A stretch of 64,000 nt of DNA from Rhizodiscina lignyota (Eukaryota; Ascomycota; Dothideomycetes; Aulographales; Rhizodiscinaceae), in contig ML978122.1 in the NCBI GenBank assembly GCA_010015805.1, positions 124,001 to 188,000 of the forward strand, read 5' to 3'. Position 1 is the first letter of the stretch. Each line of letters begins with the position of its first letter. The notes beneath the pieces were generated by a model, which was not told the DNA's origin, did not search any database, and was given only the letters and a program-made list of their open reading frames with translations. Below, piece after piece: positions 31,965 to 61,268 of this stretch. Made by a program: the position numbers and the translations under genes.

Positions 31965-34900
31965 CTACCATGCCGCAACATCGTGATCAAAGCGAGCTAA
32001 TTCCTTCCCAGAATCCTCGACATCCTTCTTTGCTTTCATGCGCATGTAGAAAATCGGACAGTCCCTGCTACTGCAGATGACCTCCGAATGCATGCTACCT
32101 TGACAACGTTGACACTGTGTCCAAAGGCGGGCAAAGCGAACCTCCAGTTCAGAAACCTTCGTGAGCGTCTTCTGATATAGCTCGGGGAAGCGGTGACGGT
32201 CGTTAGCACACACGGCTCCATCACGCTCTTCCGCCGAGATAAGAGGCTTTTTGCAACCCATGCACGTCTGTGTCTTTTTTGCGAACTTCATGAGCCCACC
32301 CATCGTCGGAGCCGCAACGGAGATTGTACGCGTATGTTCGCCAGTGAGCAACGATGCTGCTTTCTTCTCGCCCATAATTGGCTCGAAGATACGCTCCAGA
32401 GGCTTGGCCAGCTGGTTGTCTAGATAATATTTTGTGTCAATCGGGAGATTATTTTCCAGGACGTAGATCGGATCCTCGCTCTTTTCGTAGTTCTTGCTGC
32501 CGCCCGCCCCCTTGACGATGACATACGCGACACGATCACCCAGGGCAGGAGCACTACCAGCGTCACGCTTCTTCATGCGCTCAGCTAGTTCGACGTGAGC
32601 TTGCTTTCCATCATAGTTTGTCTTGGTCAAGGCTTTCGTGATGACGAGATTCGACATATCGATCTTATTTTGCAAAAGGTCGGAAATTGTTTCTTTGACG
32701 TATCTGTGATATTGTTAGTCTTTGCTAATACCTGAACGATGAAGCAACACTCACTCTTGTGCACCGTTAACATCGCGGTCAATCAAAAGCATTCGAAGAG
32801 ATGTCTCAATGACCGTCTGAACAAGCCGGCAATTGTCTCTTCGAACTGTTTCGATACCTTTGCTGTCCATCTTGTCGAACTTGTCTGGATTTGTCCAATA
32901 CAGTCCAGCATATCGCTTCTTGTTGATGAGCAGATACGGGAAGTAGACCTTCTCGAATTCGAGTTTAATGGGATTCCGGAACTTGGAGGACATAAACTGT
33001 GCAGCCTCCTGTCCAAGCTCCATCGTTTTTCCCACATCGGTCAAGCCAAATTTCACCATGACGGAATCAGTGTCGCCGTATATGACTTGAGCATCATGCG
33101 TATAGCCATTCGCCATAGTGTACTGCTTCTCCACCTCATCCTTCGTCATTTCAATCATTTGCCGACCATAACTGGTTGTGCTACTTGCAATTTCCAAGCA
33201 CGGCAACTTGCCCACAGTGGCACCCGTTAAACCATAAACACTGTTTGCGCTGACTTTCAAAGCAAGCTGGCGACCGTTCAAGACAGCCTTCTTGAAAGGA
33301 TCAGTCTCCACAGCAAGTTCCTTCTTAGCTCTCTTACGAGCCCCAAGGAGTTCCTCGAGAATCTGCGAGAGCAATCCTTTGCGCTTATTGGCGGTGACGA
33401 ACATATCTCCGTTTGGCGTGACTATGTAATCTTCGTCCTTCTTCAAGTGGAAGCTGTCGACAGCTTTCTTGTTGAGCAACGTCGTGTAGCAGAGGTTGTG
33501 CGCTTGAATAATACTGGGATACAGGGAGGCGAAGTCGAGCGTCGCAATGGGTACGTCGTAATATCCTCTGGTGGGTTCAATGACTGTAGCTCCTTCGTAC
33601 TGCTCATCTGAGCCAGACTCTGGTCGGGGTAAGTCAGGAATGACAAGGTCCTGTTCTAGGGCCTTTCGAAAAAGCTGGCTGATGAACTTGACTTGTTGAC
33701 CTCTGGCAAGAAGGAAGTTGAAGGGAACACCAGTGACTCTTGCCATCTCAGTATAGTTGACAAGACACATAAGTTTGTCCATCAAGCGCTGGGGCAAATA
33801 CGCGTCCTTCAAGCAGTACACTGCCAGACGTCTTCTGTTGTTCGAGTCTCCGTTGAACAGCTCTGTAATCATCGTGTGATGTACATCCTCCTTCTGCTCG
33901 TTCAGGAAATGGGCGCAGACAGCATTCAGCGTGTAGCTTCGCAGTTGGTAGTCCCTTTGGATAAGCTGGAGCAAATCCAACTGCAAGCGACCGTTGGTGT
34001 TTGTCGACTTGGTATCTCGGTTGCCCATTTGCTTGCTCGAGAAATTTGTCGCCTTCGCTTCAGACTTGACGTTCTTGAGACGGCTGAAGAAGGGAAATCG
34101 TCCAACCTTCAAAAATGCGGCTCGATCCAGGAGATACGGAAAGTCGAAGTTGGCAATGTTGTACCCTATGATCACATCCGGGTCTACCTTTTCGACGAAA
34201 TCTCTCCACCCCATGAGCAGCTTCTCCTCAGCATCGTACTCAAAGATTTGAGTATTGACGATGAGACTGCAGGTGTCCAGACAAAAGACGTTTCGGACGA
34301 AAGGCTTCTCCTCGCCATATCGAGTGACGACGTTTGCGATTTGAATGACAGGATCGACGTTGGGCTCAGGGAACACTCCTCTTCTCCCAGCACACTCAAT
34401 ATCGAAAGACAGAACCCGAAGTGGAGCTATCTTGGACCATTCTCCGTCGATCGGATGGGCGATCAGGTCTTTGTAGTGGACGTAGGCTTCAATCTGACAG
34501 TTAGATTGCCGTTCACGGGCATTGATCATCCGGTATTTCGTCTTATCTACGGACACCCATGACATGCCAGCAATCTGCTTCGGTTAGCATGGCATCAATG
34601 ATGTTGTGGATTTTTCAACCCACCTTTGTGTCGACCATGAATCTCAGAACATATTGAATATTGTCAAAGGTGAGTATGCCTCCTTCCACTCCTTTCCAAA
34701 GACCCTTGTAGTTGGCCTCGCCATCCTTGATTTTCGCGCGAACTCTAGCGATGTATTTTGGATCGGTCACAGTAACCCTCAGGTACGGGCTCTTCTGGTT
34801 GCCTTGAAAGCCGAAGAGGTTCTCTCTCATGACCATTCTGACCGAGTGGATAACGGGTTGATGTTGGCCCATCCTCGTTTCAAGCCAGTTTCGGAAATCG

Positions 34901-45082: not shown

Positions 45083-45173
45083 GGGCGATTGGTCTAGCGG
45101 TTATGACGTCTCGTTTACATTGCAAGTGAACATAGAAGCCGAGAAGGTCCCGAGTTCGACCCTCGGATTGCCC
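45083..45173 (+). tRNA. tRNA-Val (anticodon TAC) with 19-nt intron
   Basis: Acceptor arms GGGCGAT (45083-45089) and ATTGCCC (45167-45173) pair with one G-U. The B box is GAGTTCGACCCTC within T-arm CCGAG/CTCGG. The anticodon stem is TCTCG/CGAGA; the loop is TT-TAC-A...C, interrupted after position 37 by an intron at about 45120-45138. A run of eight T (45182-45189) is the Pol III terminator. Confidence 0.93.
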
Positions 45174-45181
45174 TGTAAATA

Positions 45182-50182: not shown

Positions 50183-50933
50183 TTACCATTTTCCTCTCAG
50201 CGTAATCTTGACCCAGTCACCCTTTTCATCCGTCTCCTTTTCAACATGTGTTGAGAAGCTGATGGCGCTCATAATTCCATCTCCAAACTTCTCGTTCAGC
50301 ACGGCTTTGTATGCGTATCCATAATTCTGCACAATTTCGTACAATCGATAAATCAGAGGCTCTTTTGGTGGCATCTCCATCGTCCGGCCTCGATCAGGCC
50401 ATCCCGTCAATTGAGCCTCGAGAGTCGCATGGTCGATGTCTAGCAATTCAGAGAGCTTCTTGACGTCCTCGCCGCTGGCTTTCGATTGGCCGTAGAACAA
50501 CGCAGCACACGCAACTTCATCACGCCCGATATGTTTCGCGATCGCCTCGAACGAGAGGTTCTTCTTCTTCTTTGCCTCAAACAGGGTGAGAGCAGACGAC
50601 GGAAGCCGCTCGACCAGAGAGCTCTGATAGTTATCAGCCACTTGAATTGAAAAGAACATCGAGTGAAGTTCGACCTCGGCAAGAAGATACGCCGAAATGC
50701 GATGGCTCGTCTCACGCGCCGGGGACTTAGGAGATAGGAAACGGTGAGGATCTTACATCAAGCGTGGCAATTGGGTGGTCTATCGTGTGCGAGGACATCT
50801 TTGATGAGCTTTGAAATGTTCGGACAGGTACACCACGGAAGATTTTGGCTAATGAAGTTGGGCGGCTTGCGTAGGGCACAAGCGTACGAGACGAAAACCC
50901 AGAAGTCAGTGCAAGAGGCCTGAGGAAGGACAT
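50183..50933 (-). CDS. Cyanase (cyanate hydratase) with N-terminal presequence-like extension
   Basis: Exons 50933-50757 and 50623-50183 (intron GTAAGA..TATCAG, phase 0) give 205 aa. Cyanase converts cyanate and bicarbonate to CO2 and carbamate/ammonia, forming a decamer. The catalytic core is intact: [20 protein letters not shown] has the Arg and Glu, and [12 protein letters not shown] has the Ser of the Arg-Glu-Ser site. The helix-turn-helix-like N-terminal domain is [20 protein letters not shown]. The first 45 residues ([20 protein letters not shown]... to Met46) carry seven basic and no acidic residues, like a mitochondrial presequence; from Met46 the protein is 160 aa, the usual length. 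The acceptor has a close branch site (GGCTGATAAC), so its exact position is less sure. Confidence 0.9.
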
Positions 50934-52094
50934 GGCGGAAGAGCAGGATGAGGGGTATTTGAATTGGATATGTCTTGGTCTTAAGTCACACCCTCAGCCC
51001 TAGTGGATGTATGTACGGGGGTATTTGGAAGCCCGCCGTGGAAATACTCTATTCGGAGGTCATCCATCCTGCATCCCTGGGTCCCGGATGAGGGGCAGAG
51101 GCTCCAGATCTCTTCCGCATGTCACCAACTGCAACAGGAAGTAACCACCGAGATCACTGCCGCCCGCCCAGAGTCTCCACTCAGTCATCATGACAGTTGC
51201 TTTTCCATGCGGCGCACAATGCGAATGAGCGGCCTCGCTGACCAGACTGCTACACCAACATGTAGTTCCGAAGGACGTCCGACAGTACATAGGATGCACC
51301 TCACATTCCAACGACAGGTCGCCGAAGTGCGCGAGACGAAGTACCGACGAGAGCGAGTGTCGCGCGAGAAGACTCATAGCGCAATGTTATCGTGGACCGA
51401 CTAGAGCTGCGTAATCTATCATGTTTTCCGAGATTTCTACTGTGCGGACAATCTTTCTCAAGCCCTTCCATTTTCCTCCTATATTCTCGCTACGTTACGG
51501 CCCGCGCATTCCGTCCGCCGTGACTGGTGAAGAAAAGTAGAGATTCAGTGGCTTCACTTTCTTCTACCGGGTTTACACTGTGTACAGAGACGTACAAGTT
51601 TGTTCCTTTAATTCCTCCACTAGTCTACGTGGAGTAAACTGTCGTCTGTTTAAGATTTCAGTAATCAACTTGTTGGGTGAAGTGTGGGAGCGGCTTTTGC
51701 GGAATTGCGGCCGATTTGCCGCGAGATGAAAAGGAGCTATACTCTGAAGATTTGGACGCTCGGGCCATCAACAGACTCAAATATACCGTCGAGATAGAAA
51801 AATGTCGCCCAGATAGGCTCGACATCCTCGGCACTTGCGGCATTGATGGGGGTTTGGAGCTTGTCGGCCTGTGGTAAGTTGGCCAGCGGTCCAGACGCGG
51901 GCGTCTTTTACAGGCTACGAGCAGTATCGCAGACAATATAGCAGAACTGGTCTATGGACGCAGCAGGCAAGTTTTCACCAAGTGCTGTTGTTGCAGAAAA
52001 CTTCAAGCCATTATTGCCTTGGCCTTTAGATGCTCATGATGGCAAGTTGGTACCTCACGCTGCTAATCAGGGTAACTGATAGTTACATTATCTG
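50934..52094. other. 1.2-kb gap, nothing firm
   Basis: Short frames on both strands at 51003-51404 and 51658-51936 are unrecognised. A plus-strand frame around 51677-51877 (KYTVEIEKCRPDRLDILGTC) looks somewhat protein-like but has no start or partners. Confidence 0.3.
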
Positions 52095-56485: not shown

Positions 56486-57104
56486 TCCGCACTCGAGAAA
56501 TAGATTCTCTAACCTAACGGAAGGGGTATGAACCATTATCTTTGTGGTGAGGCTGAATCCGCCGAATTAGGCTTAGCGTACTATGTCCGATACACCGGCT
56601 GGCCAAAACGCTCGCAACATTTTGGCCTCGACTGTCTGACCGCCCAGAAATTATCGAACATGAACAAACATGGCTTCACAACGCTGTAGAACACGTCATT
56701 GATGTGTTCAGAGTTCTTCATGCGAGCGTCTTGTTGGTGGATACGATAGCCAGATCCCCGGAGTGCAGCACTCCAATCGCGAGAGTACACCAACTCCACA
56801 AATTCCAGTCTCTTGAGTTTCCTTGCTAAGACTACTATTGTCTAGTCAACATCTAGTCATCGCTTTCTCATTGTCCCTTTCATCCAGAATGACGATCGGT
56901 AATTCCACCGGGGTCTGATGCCGTGGAATGGCAGCCGTTCTGGGTCAACGTCTATATTTTCCTGTTTCGGGAATCAGTTTCTCTATCTCATTTTACTTTA
57001 GATTAAATCTACCATTGAACAAGTCATATATTCATCCGGATCTCCGGATAAAGGCCAACGTAGCGGTAGGCGTTGCGTGTTGGGCTCTAACCTTTGTGTG
57101 GGTT

Positions 57105-57134
57105 GGAGAACAATACTAAGGAGAACAATATTAA
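57105..57134 (+). promoter_or_regulatory. Tandem 15-bp repeat carrying AACAAT cores
   Basis: Units 57105-57119 and 57120-57134 (GGAGAACAATANTAA) differ at one base. Each contains AACAAT, the core bound by HMG-box (SRY/MAT-type) proteins. It lies about 250-280 bp upstream of the peptide ATG. Regulatory use is inferred. Confidence 0.4.
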
Positions 57135-57282: not shown

Positions 57283-57289
57283 TATATAA
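57283..57289 (+). promoter_or_regulatory. TATA box of the CaaX peptide gene
   Basis: TATATAA lies 98 bp before the ATG 57387, followed by a C/T-rich, ATG-free leader ending CAAATCAAAAATG. This is the architecture of a strongly expressed fungal gene. Confidence 0.6.
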
Positions 57290-57386
57290 CGACGCCGAAC
57301 TTCGAACATCTTCCATCTCCATCGCAAACTATCAAACTCTTCCTATCGCTTCACAGTTCAAGAACTATCAACCATCCAAATCAAAA

Positions 57387-57548
57387 ATGCAGTTCTCCAC
57401 TGTCACTCTCGTCAACCAGGCTGGTGTTCAGCAAGGTACAGCATTCGCAGGCCCCATTTGCCCAATGTCTTATGCTAAAAAAGATACAGAAATCGTCAAC
57501 GAGGCCGGTGGCAAGCCAGGTCACGGCGACCAGTGCATTGTCATGTAA
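57387..57548 (+). CDS. Short CaaX-terminated peptide, candidate a-factor-like lipopeptide pheromone precursor
   Basis: Spliced model: exons 57387-57435 and 57490-57548 with a 54-bp intron (GTACAG..ATACAG, branch-like GCTAAA). The product is 35 aa: MQFSTVTLVNQAGVQQ, then EIVNEAGGKPGHGDQCIVM. The last four residues, CIVM, are a farnesylation (CaaX) box directly before the stop. Ascomycete a-factor-like precursors are 20-40 residues long and end in CVVM or similar. The intron length is a multiple of three and has no stop, so the unspliced 53-aa form also ends in CIVM. The two halves resemble each other (LVNQAG / IVNEAG). The gene has a TATA box and leader. The peptide family was not recognised by sequence, so pheromone identity is inferred from size, C-terminus and promoter. 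Another small prenylated peptide is possible. Confidence 0.6.
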   Translation: MQFSTVTLVNQAGVQQGTAFAGPICPMSYAKKDTEIVNEAGGKPGHGDQCIVM

Positions 57549-58210
57549 ATCGACTCCTGACTCTTGCGAACGGCAACGTTTAGAGGGATCGCGACGAAGA
57601 TGACGCCTGGCTACCTTTGGAAACTCTTCAGCTCACTACTCCCGCCAACTCATCCTTCCGAATCAAGCCCATTCGCCCGATAGCTCGAGGGGCGCAAGGC
57701 ATTAGCAGGTATTGGCAAATCCCTTGCCGGCCATGCTTAGGATGCTCCGACCGTCGCCAATGAGCTTACTCCGTACAACACTGAGGGAACGTTGAGAGGG
57801 GGAAGTTGTGGGTTACCTTGGACAATATAGCGGTGGCTGATACTTCTATACACTGCTCTTTACTCTTTGATCGTCCTTTTTGCTTTTTGCATTGCTTTTT
57901 TGGAATGGACTGCGCGGCCTGCCAATGTACTCTTCCTCAGGGCTCTTAATGGAGGAGCACCGTGCTTTTTAATAACTTCATGTTGCTGGTCAGAGATAAA
58001 CAAATGCATAACTTCACTTCTATATAGGCTGGACAAATCTTCTTTGCAGATTCCGAGAGTGAAATTGACTTGACCCATAAACTGACACTGGTTGTCTCGC
58101 CGAAAACGGTTAGTCGTTGATGTTGACCCTTTGTCCGAAAAGGGTAACACGCGACGCCGTTGTAGCTGCATTTCTCGAACTGCATTGCAGCTCCCCTACC
58201 CTCGCTCAGC
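57549..58210. other. Gap between the two CaaX genes
   Basis: This 662-bp gap holds the 3' flank of the peptide gene and the promoter of the Smr gene. Nothing else was recognised. Confidence 0.3.
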
Positions 58211-58984
58211 ATGTCTTTTCCAGCTGTCGATGATCGTGCTCCAAGTACGCAGCTAGGCGGCGGAAGTCAGTAGCGCTTCGTCCACGTGCAATTGCATATT
58301 CCCTGCTAACGTCCGCGCGCAGCCTTCAATCACTCGCAGTCCCGCGAAGCTGAGGAAGAGTACGATCGCCTTCGGAATCTAGCTAGACAAGAGCTCTCCA
58401 AACGATCGCAATGCCTCGACCGAGCGCACCAAGCATACGAGAATGGTGATGGCGCGTCGGCACACGAGCTCTCCGAGGAAGGAAAGAGACATGGTGCGAA
58501 GGCGGACGAGTACAACAAACAAGCATCAGACTACATATTCCGCGAGAACAACGCACATGTCGGTGCAGACACTATCGATCTGCACGGCCAGTTCGTCGAA
58601 GAGGCCGAGGACATTCTTGAGCAGCGGATAAGATACGCGCAGTCACAGGGGCAATCGCACCTCCATGTCATTGTCGGCAAGGGAAACCATTCCTACAATC
58701 ACGTCCAGAAGATCAAGCCGCGAGTGGAGCAGGTATGCCAGGAGCTTGGGCTACAGTATCGCACGGAACACAACGAGGGCAGGATATACATAAATCTGAC
58801 TGGTGGTCCAGCGGAGCCAGAGCAGAGACCGCCCACAGGACAACAATATCATGGTGGCCAGCAGCACGGAGGACAGCAACATCAGCGGCCACCACAGCAA
58901 CAGTTCGATCAAGATGAGCAGGCAGAGCAGGAACCCGAGAGGTCTCTGCTCAAATGCTTGAAGGGTTGCTGTGTGGTAATGTGA
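58211..58984 (+). CDS. DUF1771-Smr domain protein with C-terminal CaaX box
   Basis: Exons 58211-58244 and 58323-58984; the 78-bp intron (GTACGC..CGCAG, branch GCTAAC) joins RAPT|FNHSQSREAE. The product is 231 aa. DUF1771 helical segment: EYDRLRNLARQELSKRSQCL through HGAKADEYNKQASDYIF (about residues 18-85). The Smr domain follows: IDLHGQFVEEAEDILEQRIR and LHVIVGKGNHSYNHVQKIKP with the DxH and GKG motifs, ending GRIYINL. Smr domains bind nucleic acid and some act as RNA endonucleases in ribosome or mRNA quality control. After a Gln/His-rich linker the C-terminus is SLLKCLKGCCVVM: CVVM is a CaaX box, with further Cys at -5 and -9 as potential palmitoylation sites. This predicts membrane attachment. 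Confidence 0.9.
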
Positions 58985-61268
58985 TAGGAGTTACTCCGTA
59001 CTCAGACCTGCAAAGGGGAACATGGGACAACACGACGTGATGAGATGAGATGAGCGATTTTGGATATGTTATGAGCATTCTGCATGCCTCGAAGCTACAG
59101 TGGACATGTGGCTTGACCCAAGCCGAACAAGAGTCGGAAGCTGCTGACAAGGACGGTATCATTCACCAATGTTAATTTGTCCGGACTTCGGAGTTCGTCT
59201 GCCTAATCTGACCATTGTGTAATATCCCCTCTTTGTTCAGAGCATTGATCGTCTTATAGGGGCGCATAACAATGGCACCAGGTGTCAACAATCTCGTTTT
59301 ATAATTCAATTACGTCGCAGAGCCAGACGTAGAAATTGTGTTGTGTTGCACACATATTGCAGTGCCACAAGTCGTCCGTTTCCAATCATCCGTTACTTTA
59401 GTTGCTTCTGTTCCTCTGAAGCAGAACCACCCGAGCAGGTGCGACCAAAGTTACAGCACAACTTCCAATACAAAACACCACGTCCAACACAAAAAGAACA
59501 AAAACAAAAGAACAAAACAAATAATGACTTCCACGAGAGTAGTGTTTAAGTCATTGACGAGCGGATCTAGTTCACCCCATTCCACGTCAGGACCCCGACC
59601 CCAGGCTATTGGGACTTCAACAGTACGTGCGCAGTGAACCTCAAGTACGGAATCGACGGACCAAAACCTGGGTGGCTCACTTGACTAAGGTGAAAAGCTC
59701 TACACAGATATGTTAAGAAATCTCCATGATCCTGATCATGAAATGAATAAAAAGGTAAGTACATCTTGATTGTGTTCATTCAATGGACACAATTAAGATG
59801 GAATTACAAAACAAAGGACCGCGTATTAGGAGACTACCATAATGTGACAATGTGTTGATGTGGCTAAGTCCATAGAGTGAGAGTATCTCATGCACTATAC
59901 GGAGTATGGATCTGAAATTCGATCTGCTCTCAGGCTCCCTTCTTCTTTTCGAGAGAGGCCTCGGCCTGTTAGTGTCACTACGAGCCAATCAGACCTGATG
60001 TTCCCCGTCATCAGACGTCAATACCGTGATTCCGATGGAGAAGCTCGGAGAAGTATACGATAAATACTCACCAATGAATGAGTGCTTGATCCAAACTCGA
60101 TGAACGTCCCGAGACTCGGAACCGGCCCTCCCAATAGGTGATGAGCAACTCGTTTCAAAACGGATTTGTTCCTGGTGAGCGGGTTTGCAAGGACATGCAT
60201 GCATGCCGGCAGCTACCGGACGATCCGCCAAACCGAACAGATGAGACAAAACGAAACGGAGCTATGAAATGCGGTCTCGGCGACATGGAGAAGAGCTTTG
60301 CACCGCCAGGAATGCTCTTCCTCGCATACGGTACGAGCGAGCGACGCGGTTGCACAAGCGACGTGGCGCTGGCGCAGCCATCGCTAAGAAAGAGAAGTGA
60401 AATTGTGTTTTCAGGAGAGGTGACAAGTGCTGGGAAGCGATGTAGCATTGTTTCAAGAGAGCGGATCGGACGCAGGTACCGCGGCTACAATCCCCGTCCT
60501 CGTATTCCGGCCATCTTCCCAAGAGCGACACAAGGAAGCCAACCACTACTTTCTCCAAATTCGCTCCCAACTGGTCGAATTGAGTCTTCTCTGCTGGACC
60601 GTCATGTCTGATAGAAGTAGACTGTTCCGAGTCTGGAGCTCGGCATTGGCATGGCGTCTTCTCTGAGGCCTTTGTCTTCAAGGAGATGCCACTGCCAAGC
60701 CGGGACAACCCTTCATTTCTGCTCGTCATCACCGTTCCCGTGGCCATCTGCGCCGACTGTCGCAGAATAGCATGCGCCTCATCTAGGCCCAGGCACCGAA
60801 ATTGACGCCTCTCCCACCTGGTTAACACATCTTTGGGGCTGATCTCCCGACGAAGGCCTGTCTAGCGTGGGATCCTCGGATTTAGCGCTGGTGTTGCCCG
60901 CTGTAAGAACGCTATAGAGGAAATTGTGGGTGAAATTGGTCGAAATGCCGGGAAGCTACCGATCTCTATCGCCTCCTGGTCTCTTTATTTAGACCCTTCG
61001 TGTCCCTTTGTATCTCTCTTGCCATTGCTGAGCCATTTTCACGCTCGTTACTTTTGTTTGTCTTTCATACGGTCTGCGACCGCGGGTTCGTTCAGACGTC
61101 CATTCATTCAGTTATCCGTTGAAGGAGACCACTCTTTGTCCGCGTTCTGCAAATTTACGCTTGAGTCAATTTGGGCCAAGTCGAGGTATCAGAGATACTC
61201 TTCAATTCTGCTTGTTATTCGTCGAAGCTTCAACTGCCTCCACCAACGGTCCCAAATCTCGACCAATC
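58985..61268. other. 2.3-kb gap without a recognised gene
   Basis: Scattered frames on both strands (60138-60611, 60262-60828) show no family features. The 60.9-61.26 kb part is the promoter/leader of the DUF1996-WSC gene, with TATTTAG-like and CT-rich segments. Confidence 0.3.

Follow-up and report, generated by a model that had tools for sequence, protein, structure and literature searches.

We describe here a short open reading frame (ORF) in a 64,000-nucleotide stretch of fungal DNA, hereafter the window, that probably, though with some reservation, encodes the precursor of an a-factor-like farnesylated lipopeptide pheromone. The gene is unannotated. Its ORF lies on the forward strand at 57387-57548 and, read without splicing, yields a product of 53 amino acids, MQFSTVTLVNQAGVQQ...GHGDQCIVM. 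An earlier note on this DNA had proposed an ORF over this interval that ends in CIVM, and we could verify the ATG at 57387, the stop codon that ends at 57548 and the C-terminus itself. The last codons, TGC ATT GTC ATG TAA (57534-57548, forward strand), form a CaaX box with a final Met and thus a predicted farnesylation site. A CaaX or CpaX box is described as the sole strictly conserved character of a-factors (PMC10569646, in excerpt), and the candidate carries one. A further criterion is a hydrophobic N-terminus without a signal peptide (PMC13037118). The first 12 residues of the candidate have a mean hydropathy of +0.50, and its highest nine-residue window reaches 1.24 at residue 1 in a spliced form (see below) or 1.30 at residue 19 in the unspliced form, with no obvious signal peptide as judged by hydropathy. 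A-factor precursors usually have an N-terminus rich in Ser and Thr; in the candidate these make up 25% of the first 12 residues, a value equal to that of the Magnaporthe grisea precursor and one for which no threshold has been defined.

An ORF of this size might instead have arisen by chance in a non-coding intergenic stretch or an untranslated RNA, with its CIVM ending a coincidence, a reading that we judge distinctly unlikely. It fits the shortness of the ORF and the failure to find a homologue. Looser CaaX endings are also frequent by chance, with five seen against 2.15 expected among the 679 ATG-initiated ORFs of at least 20 amino acids in the window. As broad CaaX patterns are not rare, the weight rests on the final Met together with the two aliphatic residues. 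The stricter ending C[AVIL][AVIL]M is found in only one of the same 679 ORFs, namely the candidate, and such an ORF is expected just 0.033 times per window, which argues against coincidence (chance expectations for CaaX endings were taken from 60 first-order Markov simulations of the window). When the start codon is ignored, the window holds 18 CaaX-like C-termini, two of which have a final Met: the candidate and the Smr/DUF1771 gene downstream. Codon usage likewise speaks against a chance ORF. By mean codon log-odds, built on 3,069 reference codons, the unspliced candidate ranks third among 368 ATG ORFs of 30-80 amino acids (a spliced form would rank first), and the score is negative in both alternative forward frames at this locus. 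This codon evidence comes from 53 codons only, which, like the weak intron signals described below, is a point on the side of chance.

The sequence ahead of the ORF has promoter features, and this alignment of TATA box, leader and start context is a further argument against a chance ORF. The TATA box reported in the earlier note is present as TATATAA at 57283-57289 on the forward strand, 104 bp before the ATG, and is the sole occurrence of this heptamer on either strand of the window. It is followed by a G-poor leader (57290-57386, forward strand) with the start context ATCAAAAATGC. Measured over 57288-57386, G accounts for 8 of 99 positions, a content found in 0.16% of windows. The leader had been described as CT-rich, but it is not unusually so: C plus T amount to 56 of 99 positions, a proportion matched or exceeded by 22% of windows.

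Within the ORF there is a possible, optional in-frame intron of 54 nt at 57436-57489 (forward strand; donor GTACAG, branch GCTAAA, acceptor ATACAG), the removal of which would give 35 amino acids. A spliced ORF of 35 codons had been called before. A GT..AG segment of 54 nt can indeed be taken out here in frame to leave 35 amino acids, but the ORF needs no intron and the signals are mediocre. The candidate frame has no stop inside 57436-57489 and is open throughout when unspliced; the intron is thus optional, and that it keeps the frame is a weak argument for a gene. With a hand-set weight matrix, the proposed intron scored 4.1, which 5.8% of 10,200 random GT..AG pairs from the window equalled or exceeded, while the best scores of ten junctions from other window genes ranged from 3.2 to 15.2 (two of these being alternatives for one O-methyltransferase junction). 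We therefore consider the intron doubtful. Codon use inside it is intron-like, with G or C at the third position in 10 of 16 codons before, 5 of 18 inside and 14 of 19 after the segment (inside against the 24/35 of both flanks together, Fisher p 0.008), and a 35-residue product is plausible on this ground. The CaaX end is kept in the spliced and unspliced forms alike, so that the functional reading is independent of splicing, and both forms (35 and 53 amino acids) stay below the 100 residues taken as the upper bound for a-factor-like precursors. Of the earlier argument that a chance ORF would rarely combine a CaaX box ending in Met, a TATA box, a leader and an in-frame intron, the first two elements are confirmed, the intron is weak evidence and the leader is G-poor, not unusually CT-rich. 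Elsewhere in the window, the DNA polymerase delta gene has an apparent atypical donor, GTGCAC, with branch ACTAAC (32693-32764, best of three candidate joins), and so donors other than GTAAGT may occur in this genome.

A different intron would abolish the CaaX box altogether. A donor GTAAAT at 57545 overlaps the stop codon, and splicing from it would make the ORF exon 1 of a different short protein. This intron (GTAAAT..CTTCAG, 57545-57631) scores 7.2 against 4.1 for the proposed one, but its branch site, GATGAC, is poor and it would add just about 17 residues before the next stop, and we regard it as very improbable.

The ORF also contains an 18-nt repeat, whose copies on the forward strand lie at 57409-57426 (encoding VNQAG) and 57493-57510 (VNEAG). 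The copies are identical at 16 of 18 positions and are spaced by exactly 30 nt in the spliced coding sequence, a match that did not arise in any of 2,000 codon shuffles. Of the two mismatches, one is silent and one replaces Q by E. The pattern points to an earlier duplication of a 10-residue unit in the candidate. The putative intron sits between the two copies.

The neighbourhood favours an a-factor-like precursor through the proximity of a cyanate lyase gene, which lies on the reverse strand at 50183-50993 (the span of two open frames, with two exons and an intron at 50756-50624 inferred). It matches PF02560 with an E-value of 1.9e-32 over 64 of 69 profile positions and without a stop in the matched range, and its nearest solved chain in the PDB is 6xgt (E 1.1e-63, residues 49-189). 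Between the candidate and the 5' border of the cyanate lyase reading frame lie 6,394 bp. Neurospora crassa, M. grisea and Gibberella zeae carry their a-factor gene close to cyanate lyase, and in Chaetomium globosum and Podospora anserina the precursor is found downstream of it (PMC3068285, in excerpt). The chance of a cyanate lyase gene within 7 kb is about 4e-4, given a 35-Mb genome and a single copy, both of which are assumed; if a few further marker genes and longer distances are also counted, the estimate rises to perhaps 1%. The linkage between the candidate and cyanate lyase is thus loose, and hard to explain by chance. The ORF, its CaaX box, the promoter features and the nearby cyanate lyase gene are all observed.

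The same proximity would be unexpected if the candidate were a genuine small gene whose product is not a mating pheromone but some other farnesylated peptide, or a microprotein tethered to the membrane. We hold this alternative to be unlikely. In its favour, CaaX boxes are not exclusive to a-factors, and seven Leotiomycetes each have 2 to 12 annotated proteins of at most 100 amino acids that end in CaaX or CpaX (PMC10569646, in excerpt). Moreover, the adjoining Smr/DUF1771 gene ends in CCVVM, so that a CaaX box with a final Met is not unique in the window, and the GY motif, discussed below, is absent from the candidate.

Several results weigh against an a-factor-like precursor. No GY motif is present near the C-terminus of the candidate, the residues that precede the Cys being GHGDQ; this motif, usual in a-factors though not strict, has been reported for those of Sordariomycetes and for 87 of the Leotiomycete candidates (PMC10569646, in excerpt). 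No relative was retrieved either. Searches for relatives covered viral and genome contigs, outside any fungal genome collection; a protein-pattern scan of the viral contigs returned no relative among 20 pattern matches. The search for the C-terminal motif GHGDQC[IV]VM that the earlier note had suggested gave 0 hits in literature text and, as a DNA pattern, 0 in viral contigs, a set without fungal genomes. Neither Pfam nor NCBIfam gave a match for the candidate, the one PDB match was insignificant (E 1.4), and BLASTP of the candidate against the M. grisea precursor produced no alignment. The linkage, too, differs from its precedents: at least three genes separate the candidate from cyanate lyase, and the candidate lies on the 5' side of that gene, not downstream. 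Among 55 other window ORFs scanned, a part of all ORFs in a window that ends about 6.5 kb downstream of the candidate, none had a Pfam match to EBP2 or MYND, the further genes of the Sordariomycete a-factor locus. Linkage is itself variable, as Trichoderma reesei has lost it, with order and orientation differing among species (PMC3068285, in excerpt), and Huntiella a-factors have different neighbours, the linkage being absent in some Sordariomycetes. Short CaaX ORFs with a looser motif, presumed dormant, also occur near other genes of N. crassa and G. zeae. Finally, published HMG-box motifs show no enrichment over the 1000 bp that precede the candidate, where A[AT]CAA[AT]G occurs once against 0.69 expected and CTTTG three times against 2.69, with 0 occurrences of both the PaHMG5 consensus and ATCAAAG.

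We know of no Pfam model for filamentous ascomycete a-factors, and the absence of a Pfam match therefore says little. One bacterial locus, from Microvirga, was drawn from 190 pattern matches in the genome contigs (48% identity over 29 residues); its DNA runs on without a CaaX box, and we dismissed it as a chance match. Membership of the candidate in the a-factor class is not established, because GY is absent and no relative was retrieved. The original suggestion, a lipopeptide pheromone or another short prenylated signal, keeps the support of its size, its CaaX box ending in Met and the lack of an obvious signal peptide by hydropathy, and it gains independent support, not used in the note, from the cyanate lyase gene 6.4 kb away. 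The intron is doubtful, the GY motif is absent and the searches described above gave no relative.

Compared with known precursors, the candidate resembles those of Sordariomycetes (N. crassa mfa-1, G. zeae ppg2, M. grisea) in being short, in its terminal CaaX box and in having cyanate lyase in the neighbourhood. The M. grisea precursor, for instance, has 26 amino acids and ends in CVIM (PMC3068285, in excerpt). It departs from them in lacking GY or HY before the Cys, in the three or more genes that lie between it and cyanate lyase, in not aligning with the M. grisea precursor by BLASTP and in the lack of EBP2 and MYND among the ORFs scanned. The putative Leotiomycete a-factors (Botrytis cinerea BCIN_13g03330 and homologues) have 45-64 amino acids, a range that includes the 53 of the candidate, and CIVM is among their endings; they have homologues in at least 111 species (PMC10569646, in excerpt), whereas none was found for the candidate, a comparison made by description rather than with the sequences. 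With the Hypocreales hybrid (h-type) precursors, such as T. reesei HPP1, the candidate shares small size, an internal repeat and a terminal CaaX box. However, h-type precursors carry three (LI)GC(TS)VM-like motifs, whereas the candidate has a single terminal CIVM and its repeat, V-N-[QE]-A-G, contains no internal CaaX.

Further upstream lie elements that may be of regulatory interest. Two adjacent head-to-tail copies of a 15-bp element, GGAGAACAATA[CT]TAA, occupy 57105-57134 and are the only adjacent 15-bp duplication in the window (at least 14 of 15 positions identical). Each copy contains AACAAT, which resembles an HMG-box core, making the element a possible HMG-box binding site. Just upstream, at 57092-57097, stands CTTTGT, which includes the CTTTG core bound by the N. 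crassa HMG protein mat a-1, a regulator of mfa-1 (PMC3036917, in excerpt), and in P. anserina both pheromone genes are strongly reduced on loss of PaHMG5 (PMC3730723, in excerpt). The two AACAAT and the CTTTGT fall within 32 bp (start to start) and are the only such trio within 40 bp in the window, compared with a mean of 0.01 in 200 simulation runs, for a cluster motif that was chosen after it had been noticed. Within 60 bp, two trios were seen against 0.06 expected, the second at 59231-59287. Since the published motifs are unenriched and a second cluster of cores exists, we treat HMG-box regulation of the candidate as a lead only and do not count it as support.

If the candidate is an a-factor-like precursor, its expression, farnesylation, cleavage, export and receptor can be inferred from established a-factor biology. 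The TATA promoter would drive a small mRNA, translated in the cytosol into a 53-residue product (35 residues if spliced) that ends in CIVM. As the X of the CaaX box is Met, farnesyltransferase is predicted to place a farnesyl group on the Cys, after which the IVM tail would be removed and the Cys carboxyl-methylated. Cleavage of the N-terminal part would leave about 6-11 residues plus the Cys, following the convention of PMC13037118. A Ste6-type ABC transporter would then export the mature peptide, which cells of the opposite mating type may sense through their Ste3 receptor. In a study of Dothideomycete ABC transporters, each of the fungi examined had a single Ste6-like gene in its genome (PMC6071951, in excerpt).

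A-factor-like precursors as a kind are already known, so that the novelty of the candidate depends on its source. The short introns of the window and its DUF1996, WSC and DUF7730 genes point to a filamentous ascomycete, and the PDB matches say nothing about its class. If the source is a Sordariomycete or a Leotiomycete, the candidate would be an ordinary new member. Outside the Sordariomycetes, Pezizomycotina are reported to have had no a-factor before the putative one described from Leotiomycetes in 2023, efforts in other classes having been fruitless (PMC10569646, in excerpt), and among the matches listed in open-licence literature we found no a-factor from a further Pezizomycotina class. 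If the source belongs to another class, the candidate would be the first a-factor there, as far as those matches extend. Tentatively, it is possible that the fungus comes from a class without a described a-factor, such as Dothideomycetes or Eurotiomycetes, that the candidate is the lipopeptide pheromone long sought there, maturing to a novel peptide that ends in GHGDQC, and that cyanate lyase linkage is an ancestral arrangement in Pezizomycotina. If true, this linkage could serve to locate missing a-factors across those classes. Genes for a-factors are very small, show little conservation and frequently escape annotation. With a credible candidate close to cyanate lyase, they could be sought by position, and the pairing of Ste3 and its ligand would become directly testable where the receptor alone is known.

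The remaining genes around the candidate follow, in rising coordinates, the order cyanate lyase, O-methyltransferase (52.1-53.3 kb, reverse strand), FAM32A (54.5-55.2 kb, reverse), an endonuclease III-like HhH-GPD gene (55.0-56.5 kb, forward), the candidate, the Smr/DUF1771 gene (58310-58984, or 58.3-59.0 kb, forward, with a 5' exon upstream) and a DUF1996/WSC gene (61.0-63.0 kb, forward). The Smr/DUF1771 product ends in LLKCLKGCCVVM and its stop codon, its final CCVVM at 58970 combining a CaaX box, a final Met and an adjacent Cys. One review of Smr proteins (PMC3200294, in excerpt), searched by word, gave no hit for CaaX, prenyl or farnesyl, and no connection between Smr proteins and CaaX boxes appeared among the matches listed in the literature. 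ARAGORN, run with the bacterial code setting, called a tRNA-Cys (anticodon aca) at 45083-45174; Rfam gave no match at the gathering score and nothing at 45083-45174, and the call is probably false.
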